Assembly: GCA_024867545.1 (NCBI GenBank)
Contig: JANFNE010000006.1
Coordinates: 62,001 to 126,000, forward strand
Direction of reading: 5' to 3'
DNA: 64,000 nucleotides
DNA from: Phytopythium helicoides
Taxonomy: Eukaryota; Oomycota; Peronosporomycetes; Pythiales; Pythiaceae
In this document: positions 42,271 through 45,724 of the stretch, one piece after another
Layout: each line of letters opens with the position of its first letter
Numbering within the stretch: the stretch's first letter is position 1
Notes under the pieces: model-generated
The model's database searches: none
Seen by the model: the letters and a program-made list of their open reading frames with translations, nothing else
What the model was told of the DNA's origin: nothing
Program-made: the position numbers and the translations under genes

Positions 42271-45200
42271 TCACGAGATGCTGGCGCGAGTGGTGACGCT
42301 GCTCGCAGACCGCCGAGAGTGGGTCAACAGCTGCCGGGCGGCTGCGAACGCCGCCAGGTTCAGCACTTGGTAGGAGTCCTTGCCCCGAAGCCCACGTACG
42401 AGCTCGGAGAACCCGCGGCCGTAGCTCAGGTCGTCCGAGAACACGTACGGCCGCCCGCCGTCCTTCTCGAGCAGCCGGAGGACGTCCGCGTCCAGGAGCT
42501 TCGAGCGCTTGGAGTAGTAGACCGGCACGATTGTCTTGCCCTTGTCCTCCGCGAACGCGAGCTGGTCGCTCACGAGCTCCGTCTTGACGCTCTGCTCGGA
42601 CAGCACGACAAGGAACACGGAACTCTGCAGAATCGCGTCCTTTGCTGCCAGAATACGCTCCTTCATGCTCGACACGTTCGTCATCGAGTCAACGATGATC
42701 GACAACTGTTGCCGGCGCAGCTCATTGCAGAGACGAGTGACAAAGTCGCGGTGACAGTCGCCATGACTCACAAAGATCGTGAACGCGGGACCCACAAAAT
42801 GCTGTTTCCGTCCGCTGCCTCGCGCAATCACTGCGTCCACGACCTCGTCCAGTGATTGCTTGTGGTTCGAACTCTCGTCTCGGAAGGTTCGCGCGAGCCT
42901 TCGGCTTGGCGGAGTGATGGCAGAGTGACGAAGCTGCATGACTGGGGATAGTTGCGAGCCGAGCATCCCGTTATGCGCAGGCGACAATAGCGAAGAGGAG
43001 CGACGCTCATCGCTTCCTGTCAGTCTGACATGCATCTCGGACTCGAGTGGCGCAAACGAGAAGAACCGATTCCCTCCTCCAAGGCGATGGAGCTCCACTT
43101 CGTCACGCAGACCATCAATGAGGCTGCGAAGACTAGCCTGGAACTTCTCATCGTCAATCTCGAACTCAACGTGCTCCACAATGGTGCTGTCCGAATCGGT
43201 TGTCTCGGAAGACAGATAGCTGTGGCTAGATGTCACTGCTTGACCGAAGGGGACGATCTGTCGGGTGTAAATGTACACTTGTAGCTCCTCCGACACGCTG
43301 AACGCTTCGCATGACATTGGGACGACTAGACAAGTAAACACCAAATGAGTTTCCCAGCATTCCGCATCGAGCTATGCAAACTCGTCACGTACCAGGGATT
43401 TCCAGCGCTTTAGCGTACACAAGCTCTTCCATGGCGATAGACTGCTCATACCCTTGGCTGAGCATGCAGACGAGGGCAGACGCTTGCTCGATCACATCCT
43501 TCGAAAGTTGAATATCGTCGTCGTCTTCCCTCATATAAACCGTGATGAAATTCTGCTCAATACCAAGGCGCACTCGATTGGCAAATGTTCGGAACGCAGG
43601 CTCGAACGATAGCACAACATCGACGCAGCCTCCTGCGACCTTGACGGCGTATTGCAACTCTGCTGACGCACAGCACTCAATAGCTCGCCGTCCTTGCCCA
43701 TTCATCGCGTATATATCTGCTTGGCCTTCGACCAGCAGTGCCAGTGCAACATCACGGTGGCCGAGTCGCAGCGCAATATGGAGTGGCGTGTCATGGTTCT
43801 CGTTCTCGACTCGTTCGTTCGCGTTGACACCAGCCGACACAAACAGTTCGACACATGGACCTCCGATAAGGCCACCGAGAACACCAAAGGCGAGTGGGGT
43901 AAGCCCGTCATGGTCTGCCAGCCTTGGATCAGCATCGTGCGCAAGAAGTTCCTTGACTGCAGTCTCGTAGTTGTGGCGTGCAGCCCAGTGTAGAGGTGTA
44001 CGGCCATGACTGTCCTTAGCATTTACATCCGCGCCCTTGTCAAGAAGCGCAGTGATGACGTACGTCCTGCCCATGACTGCCGCCCAGTGCAAAGGCGTAC
44101 GGCGGTTGACGCCGTCTTGGAACTCTCCGAGAACGTTTGGGTCTACCTCCCACGCTAGCAAGTGGCGCACGGTGGCCAAATCGCCAGCTGCAGCAGCTTC
44201 GTGCAATGGAGTCAGCGCCACATCGGCACCCCAGTCAGCGAGTGCGCTTGCCAATTCTCTTCGGCCATTTAGCTGAGCACGCTGCAGCACAGTCGTGCTC
44301 ATAGCGTCCCCTTTGCCTGGCACAACGAGGATGTTGGCGCGATGGTAGATCAAACTCTCTACCACGTCGACTGCATCACATAAGAATATCGGCGTGACTC
44401 GCATCGACTTGGAAAAGAAGCTCGTACGAGCAAGCACATCAAGGTTGGCGCCAAACTTGACGAGAAGATCGATCACATCGGTGTGTCCATGCTCGGCTGC
44501 AACATGCATGGGTGACCCAAGTACATGTGCAATATTACGGAAGCGAAGCTGGCACATGTCATACAGCAGCTCAAGGTCAAACGACGCACCTGAGGTTTTG
44601 TCCAAGAAGTTCGGGTTGATGCCGGCTTCTAGCAACATCTCAACAAGCTCAACGTCTCCGGCACGACACGCCACGTGCAGTGGGTTTCGGGTTCGATGAG
44701 CGAAAGCCCAGAATATCAGCATTGGTGTATTGTACATGCGTGTCAGCAGCATCTCGAGCTTGAGCTGTGAGCCGAGAACATTTTGGGCGTGGCGAAGAAG
44801 TCTCCCAACGCGAACATGGTCTCCGTTCAAGGTGGCTTCATGGAGCGCGTATCGGAGCGTTCGCTCGAGAGTTCGCACCGATGATCCAAGCTGCATTTCC
44901 TGGGCCAGTGTCAGATACGTTGTTTCGGCAGCATTCGAACGCAGAATCGGCGTGCTGACGTCGTCACTCGACGTTTTAGCATGCCCTGAAGCCGTCAAGC
45001 GGGAGCTGGAGGAGGATCCCGAAAGCGAGACCAGGTCCTCTTCTTCGAGTCCAGCTCCCAGTTGTAGCTGCTGGTGCGCTCGGAGCCGGTCGAACTCCCG
45101 CGTCTGCAGCATAATACTCGCTGCCGATAACACGACGAGAAGGTTTTCTGTCTGCAATAGGTTGAGCGTGTCGTGCGACGTGAGCTCGCCGAAGGCCCAG

Positions 45201-45724
45201 TAGATGCTGCCGTATAGCAGCACGACCCACGCGAGCGAGAAGGTCTGGAAGATGACCACGACCTCGCAGAAGTACAGCACCGGCGTGTGTGCGAGCGTGT
45301 ACCTCCGCGGTCCTGCGACTGCAGCAGGCGGCGAGCTCGCCGGCGCACGGGCTTCGGGTACCGAGGAAGGTCTTCCATCCCCCTTGTCCTTTCCAGCAGT
45401 CTCGGCCTCGTTTGCAGCGCTCGGGGCCTCCGCTTGACTTGAGGGCGCCGCGTCCGGCCCGTTGGCCACGTAGAGCGCCACGAATGGCAGCGCTGAGACG
45501 CCAAGCAGCACGTTGAGCAGCTGGATGGACGCCCAAATCCACAGCACGAGCGTCTTCTCCTGCGACAGCGCGACGAGCAGCGCCAGCGACGCGGCCGACA
45601 GCAGCGTCGACACGGCCACGCGCCGCGCGTAGTACGTGTTCGACCACTGAAAGGCTGCGTCCAGCGCGCGCCAGGCGCTCGCGAGCCGCGCGGACGGCGC
45701 AGGCGGCGGCGCCGCGTCCTCCAT
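42271..45724 (-). CDS. Membrane-anchored ankyrin protein with two tandem TIR domains, two exons
   Basis: Exons 45724-43393 and 43325-42271 join in phase to 1128 residues. Four hydrophobic segments lie in the first ~220 residues (VSTLLSAASLALLVAL, LLNVLLGVSALPFVALYV, VLYFCEVVVIFQTFSLAWVV, LLVVLSAASIML). Ankyrin repeats occupy about 340-680 (RNPLHVACRAGDVELVEMLL, RTPLHWAAVMGR, RTPLHWAARHNYETAV, DTPLHIALRLGHRDVAL). A TIR-like domain follows at about 698-805 (CVDVVLSFEPAF, VCMLSQGY, MEELVYAKALEIPVVPM), crossing the intron. A clearer TIR domain lies at about 958-1095 (FTIFVSHGDC, VFLVVLSEQS, KTIVPVYY). TIR domains assemble into signalling complexes and many cleave NAD+. By eye, domain 1 keeps Glu at the catalytic position (MEEL) while domain 2 has Gln (SDQL). 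A sensor or stress-signalling role is inferred. The frame is open to 46102; 45724 is chosen for its context and composition. Confidence 0.78.

Follow-up and report, generated by a model that had tools for sequence, protein, structure and literature searches.

Proteins that pair ankyrin repeats with TIR domains have been noted before in this lineage, and a 2022 review refers to "uncharacterized ankyrin repeat-TIR proteins" shared by some oomycetes (PMC9153377). Here we describe such a protein from Phytopythium helicoides, encoded on the reverse strand (42271..45724) of a 64,000-nucleotide stretch of contig JANFNE010000006.1, which we call the window. Its lineage and its combination of ankyrin and TIR domains are those of the review, although the accessible parts of that text make no mention of membrane helices, two TIRs, a Glu/Gln pair or sub-families among the oomycete proteins. 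Splicing in silico, Pfam matches and the model of an ortholog give a protein of 1128 amino acids, ordered as membrane helices, ankyrin repeats, a first TIR (TIR1), a helix, a disordered linker and a second TIR (TIR2).

Other TIR systems differ as well. SARM1/TIR-1 is an enzyme that cleaves nicotinamide adenine dinucleotide (NAD), that is, an NADase, with the arrangement ARM-SAM-SAM-TIR, whereas the window protein has ankyrin repeats, membrane helices and two TIRs, the second of which carries Gln. No ARM or SAM domain was detected in it with Pfam at E-values up to 1; the rows returned were matches to ankyrin and TIR families, plus a single WDR5 row at chance level. The bacterial NADase TIRs SPARTA TIR-APAZ and AbTir have a single TIR, Argonaute-linked or free-standing, whereas the window protein has two, and a shared fold shows no function. 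TLR and MyD88 adaptors are comparable in their scaffold-type TIRs, and TLRs in being membrane-anchored, but the window protein has neither leucine-rich repeats (LRR) nor a Death domain according to Pfam. Plant RPS4 and RRS1, which are nucleotide-binding LRR (NLR) immune receptors, are distinct as well, because the window protein has no nucleotide-binding or LRR match in Pfam. The same difference applies to cotton GhRVD1, which is called a TNL (TIR-NLR) in the accessible parts of PMC10170703 and makes a functional dual TIR in one chain already known.

In the literature that we searched, which was mostly open-access, without preprints and in part accessible as excerpts, no description was found of the double-TIR Glu/Gln design, the second TIR or the sub-families. 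A sequence-only reading of the locus had suggested an undescribed component of signalling or innate defence. With regard to the double-TIR design this agrees with our search, but ankyrin-TIR proteins as such are noted in PMC9153377, and family members are present in databases, labelled "TIR domain-containing protein" or "transient receptor potential Ca2 channel".

An oomycete family with a Glu/Gln pair of TIR domains

A protein search from the window protein detected 51 relatives, with 7992 candidates scored, and a second search from a paralog detected 229, of which the best 120 were listed. Among the matches listed, all named relatives are oomycetes (Saprolegnia, Achlya, Aphanomyces, Phytophthora, Pythium, Peronospora and Albugo). 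No named non-oomycete relative occurs in the 51 rows or the best 120 of 229, many of which are "lgn" or "jgi" rows that carry no organism. The oomycete origin assumed from the sequence is thus borne out, and the search reveals an oomycete-wide family, so the window protein is not unique in its design. It has all of the features that define the family: membrane helices at the N-terminus, followed by ankyrin repeats and by two TIRs that carry Glu (TIR1) and Gln (TIR2).

TIR1 (residues 700-804; 43246..43627) is split by an intron and carries Glu767 (43424..43426) at the catalytic position. TIR2 (residues 956-1092; 42382..42792), delimited by Pfam and structure comparison, has Gln1032 (42562..42564) there, and the pair noticed by eye is therefore real. 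We counted these residues in 170 sequences (160 proteins, the window protein and nine frames of the same genome), and located TIR1 in 162 and TIR2 in 161 of them. Glu occupies the TIR1 position in 161 of 162 rows, the remaining one being a gap, and Gln the TIR2 position in 161 of 161. Because it is near-invariant across the family, we consider the Glu/Gln pair a feature and not chance.

The 49.06-Mb genome yields 14 matches to the TIR_2 profile at E-values up to 0.001. Reading the loci gave seven family genes including that of the window, and six of the seven have the Glu/Gln pair in their TIRs; in three of these, the two TIRs, or the pieces of TIR1, are spread over separate frames that were assigned to one gene by nearness, and the exons of the genes on contigs C49 and C68 were grouped by nearness without transcripts. 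A paralog on contig C6 (L013:3082-5539) has the canonical TIR1 Glu and a second TIR that is only a partial match. An eighth locus, on contig C21 (L014:3984-4823), encodes a different TIR_2 protein outside the ankyrin family.

In a tree of 70 rows, the window protein falls within a clade of 32 rows, clade A, with a Shimodaira-Hasegawa-like approximate likelihood ratio test (SH-aLRT) support of 100, and groups there with two close relatives and with Phytophthora and Nothophytophthora rows. Clade A splits into Saprolegniales and the rest, which includes Peronosporales, and the other half of the tree likewise contains both. The two sub-families therefore predate the split of these orders and, judging from the tree, the sub-family of the window is ancient. 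The tree program issued a warning about long branches that meet. When the tree was rebuilt without P0039, P0050 and C49b_1, long or deep rows that lie outside clade A, and without P0034, clade A (31 rows) kept a support of 100, and the warning then concerned the branch between the two halves. Clade A as counted below comprises P0001-P0036, P0045 and the window protein, assigned by search rank and identity, with 32 of the 38 placed in the tree. The "other members" are several paralog groups taken together, including the deep P0050/C49 lineage. Albugo is among the named carriers for paralogs only; clade A was not seen there in the 51-row search with 7992 candidates scored, which does not imply loss.

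Two family members have unusual records. The P0034 model (Phytophthora fragariae) lacks the TIR2 part and continues into pantothenate kinase and Uma2 nuclease domains, and is probably a merger of neighbouring genes. P0067 (Hyaloperonospora arabidopsidis) is listed as an "RxLR effector candidate", a label that seems unlikely given its membrane-ankyrin-TIR relatives.

TIR folds and catalytic residues

The prediction of two TIR folds stands on different grounds for the two domains. TIR2 is a TIR fold by structure comparison, and the Pfam TIR_2 match of the protein (54.3 bits, against a curated cut-off of 28) has its best stretch at residues 961-1050, within TIR2. For TIR1 the fold is predicted along two lines: the AlphaFold2 model for ortholog P0002 shows the beta-alpha order at a predicted local distance difference test (pLDDT) score of 79-95, and profile homology links TIR1 to its canonical counterpart in the paralogs (E = 2.9e-37). 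On the other side, TIR1 of the window protein by itself has no significant sequence or profile match among solved TIRs, and a six-frame TIR_2 search of the genome listed TIR2 at this locus and not TIR1. Among the 50 rows listed from a fold search with the full-length model, the matches are ankyrin-repeat chains and none is a TIR, which is not evidence against a TIR fold in TIR1.

By sequence, the solved TIRs nearest to paralog TIR1 are Cat1, plant TIRs and AbTir, with MyD88 and TLR TIRs lower. HMMER aligns the TIR1 Glu of paralog P0038 with its counterpart in Cat1, AbTir (7uwg/7uxu) and plant TIRs, a residue whose catalytic role in SARM1 and plant TIRs is described in the accessible parts of PMC8295901 and PMC9153377. 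The window Gln aligns with the Glu of Cat1 and RPP1, at non-significant E-values of 0.16 and 0.32. A Trp four residues before the Glu in paralogs aligns with an AbTir Trp that we read as W204; according to the accessible parts of PMC10937652, AbTir with the W204A substitution has less NADase activity and yields a different product.

Reciprocal loss of the BB loop

The two sub-families retain the canonical BB loop in opposite TIRs. We measured loop identity between Saprolegniales and the rest in 28 clade A rows and 31 other rows, and ranked each loop against the sliding windows of its own domain, rank 1 being the most conserved. In clade A the TIR1 loop is short or variable, with an identity of 0.08 (0.06 by another count; rank 84 of 87), and the TIR2 loop is retained (0.58; rank 53 of 86). 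The other members exhibit the reverse pattern, with 0.90 in TIR1 (rank 13 of 82) and 0.13 in TIR2 (rank 86 of 86). For all domains except clade A TIR1, the second count gives identical values. Three further alignment methods gave the same result. Since the rest of clade A TIR2 has an identity of 0.57, its loop is as conserved as its own domain and has been retained without standing out from it.

The Trp four residues before the Glu follows the same division, being present in none of 36 clade A rows versus 126 of 126 rows of other members, and a Cys near the TIR1 Glu is also lost in the window protein and two close relatives. The helix of the catalytic position ranks 3, 4, 15 and 8 of 83 in clade A TIR1, clade A TIR2, other TIR1 and other TIR2, respectively; that it is high even in the Glu-less TIR2 speaks for a putative working surface there. 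Of the features expected for an NADase, the window protein thus has the Glu in helix alphaC, in TIR1 only, and lacks both the BB loop in the Glu-bearing TIR and the Trp. Because clade A TIR1 has neither loop nor Trp, the proposal that the protein contains one NADase unit is doubtful for the window protein as originally worded, and is a good one for its paralogs, to judge by their residues.

Gene structure, membrane helices and ankyrin repeats

The gene consists of two exons. Exon 1 (43393..45724) starts with the ATG at 45724 and encodes residues 1-777 and the first base of codon 778; exon 2 (42271..43325) encodes the remainder of residue 778 through residue 1128 and the stop codon. The intervening phase-1 intron (43326..43392; 67 nucleotides; GTACGT...CTAG) follows the GT-AG rule, and joining the exons gives one open frame of 1128 amino acids. 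This intron, predicted from the sequence alone, is supported because orthologs span the join region without interruption or intron, the models of the close relatives P0036 and P0045 both terminate in read-through of the same intron (P0036 is 91% identical to the window protein across 503 columns), ortholog P0018 has a 28-residue in-frame insert exactly at the site, and the frame of the C6 paralog is broken there. The P0018 insert is what an unspliced intron would give.

Three N-terminal membrane helices are clear from hydropathy and the P0002 model, at residues 31-52 (45569..45634), 58-77 (45494..45553) and 148-177 (45194..45283). The fourth (45062..45151) begins at residue 192, runs into the motif FDRLRAHQQLQLGAG and extends to residue 221 in the model; it is borderline, with a hydropathy peak of 1.31 against a cut-off of 1.4. 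Of 26 clade A rows scanned for hydropathy, 17 reach this threshold, and in an earlier scan the four-peak pattern was not present in every protein. All four segments are nevertheless helical in the P0002 AlphaFold2 model, and the four membrane helices that had been proposed are therefore likely but not certain. When the membrane part of P0029 was used as query, seven rows including the query were found, named Achlya, Saprolegnia or Aphanomyces, which gives nothing on a wider origin.

Leading helices and ankyrin repeats occupy residues 283-697 (43634..44878). Pfam detects the repeats in the spliced protein with E = 5e-43, and helix pairs in the P0002 model indicate about nine to ten units, more than the six to eight first estimated. 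A further model helix follows TIR1 (residues 836-868; 43054..43152).

The gene is flanked by frames at 40071-40964 (reverse strand) and 46999-47544 (forward strand), which by eye we take to resemble heat-shock-factor-type DNA-binding proteins. Elsewhere in the window, long inverted repeats at 9064-13353, 26297-30169, 9420-17838 and 14428-19792 overlap long open frames; three pairs are 100% complementary (1935, 1664 and 1321 nucleotides) and one is 97% complementary (1305 nucleotides). They may represent recent duplication, conversion or assembly effects.

Possible functions

We tentatively propose, with a probability of about 0.4, that the window protein is a membrane-anchored pair of TIRs, gated by its ankyrin repeats, which acts as a regulator or partner of its enzymatic paralogs. 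The N-terminal helices would anchor the protein in the membrane and, if all four cross it, the N- and C-termini would lie on the same side, presumably the cytosolic one. The ankyrin stack might bind a protein or ligand and hold both TIRs inactive; on release, TIR1 and TIR2 would assemble together and with the TIRs of paralogs. In the paralogs, TIR1, with its NADase sequence features, would have TIR2 as a catalytically dead partner. In clade A the enzyme half, TIR1, appears partly eroded, and the protein therefore most likely has a regulatory role, with weak or no catalysis, as a partner within mixed TIR assemblies, analogous to the RRS1 TIR of plants toward RPS4. Section 14 of PMC9153377, in its accessible parts, lists what a TIR NADase needs: two adjacent TIRs, relief from a domain that inhibits them, an interface at the BB loop, and the Glu. 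The paralogs appear to fit this list, with the ankyrin repeats in the position of the regulator. Cotton GhRVD1, whose single TIRs are inactive and whose TIR1-TIR2 is active in the portions available of PMC10170703, is a precedent.

Several observations weigh against this proposal. The clade A TIR1 Glu occurs in every row that has a residue at this position, as would be expected whether an enzyme or an interface has been preserved. Clade A and other members co-occur in the same species, and this is no sign of interaction. Should the borderline fourth helix fail to span the membrane, the TIRs would lie on the opposite side from the N-terminus. The proposal draws on sequence and models, and its ankyrin ligand is postulated. 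A genome search for LSDAT_euk, an ADP-ribose-sensing partner, gave no match, but neither did the control, so the search has no bearing either way.

A distribution in which clade A has its Glu only in TIR1 and its conserved BB loop only in TIR2 could also mean that the two TIRs, of the same or neighbouring chains, form one NAD-cleaving site. Clade A proteins would then be one-chain split enzymes whose halves have swapped roles relative to the paralogs, in an ankyrin-gated, membrane-anchored form of NAD signalling. We consider this unlikely, as conservation of the TIR2 loop does not exceed that of the remainder of TIR2, and both the Trp, whose AbTir counterpart supports activity (PMC10937652), and, in the window protein and two close relatives, the nearby Cys have been lost. 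The loss of the TIR1 loop and Trp, together with a TIR2 devoid of the catalytic Glu, is suggestive of a pure scaffold whose TIRs recruit other proteins in the manner of MyD88 and TLR TIRs, with neither the sub-family nor its partners carrying out NAD chemistry; the solved structure that the clade A TIR1 profile matches best, although not significantly, is a Hydra Toll-related receptor (E = 0.16). However, the TIR1 Glu is invariant where present, and the other members have retained all three features (Glu, Trp and BB loop) and are most similar to NADase TIRs, so the scaffold seems improbable to the same degree as the composite site. We rank both below the proposed role as a partner of the paralogs, whether regulatory or weakly active.

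Less probable still is a channel or membrane sensor of the transient receptor potential (TRP) type with the TIRs as accessory parts. Membrane helices adjoin the ankyrin repeats, and some members are annotated, for example, as "transient receptor potential Ca2 channel", but these names look like automatic annotation driven by the ankyrin repeats. Membership of the TRP channels, which have an ion transport domain with six helices, was rejected, as neither the window protein nor five family members scanned has an ion-channel Pfam domain and the helices, four at most, are N-terminal to the repeats. A pseudogene, or two genes wrongly joined, is very improbable even though the intron splits TIR1 and the models of two close relatives stop there. 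TIR1 and TIR2 are 64.9-77.3% identical to their counterparts in P0001 and P0002, and the same intron site is seen in P0018 and the C6 paralog. The possibility that the exons belong to different, unrelated genes was rejected because orthologs cross the exon join and carry both parts in a single chain. The locus looks like an intact single gene.

Implications for oomycete signalling

Oomycetes include major pathogens, and we found nothing that addresses their own TIR/NAD signalling in the literature searched. If the split-enzyme reading were true, it would constitute an oomycete NAD-signalling TIR system, of which we found none described. As far as its sequences indicate, this old, uncharacterised family may link membrane sensing to NAD-based signalling. 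It is also a natural experiment, in which each chain has two TIRs with opposite catalytic residues and the sub-families conserve the BB loop in opposite TIRs, so that the division of work in asymmetric TIR pairs becomes testable with single proteins.
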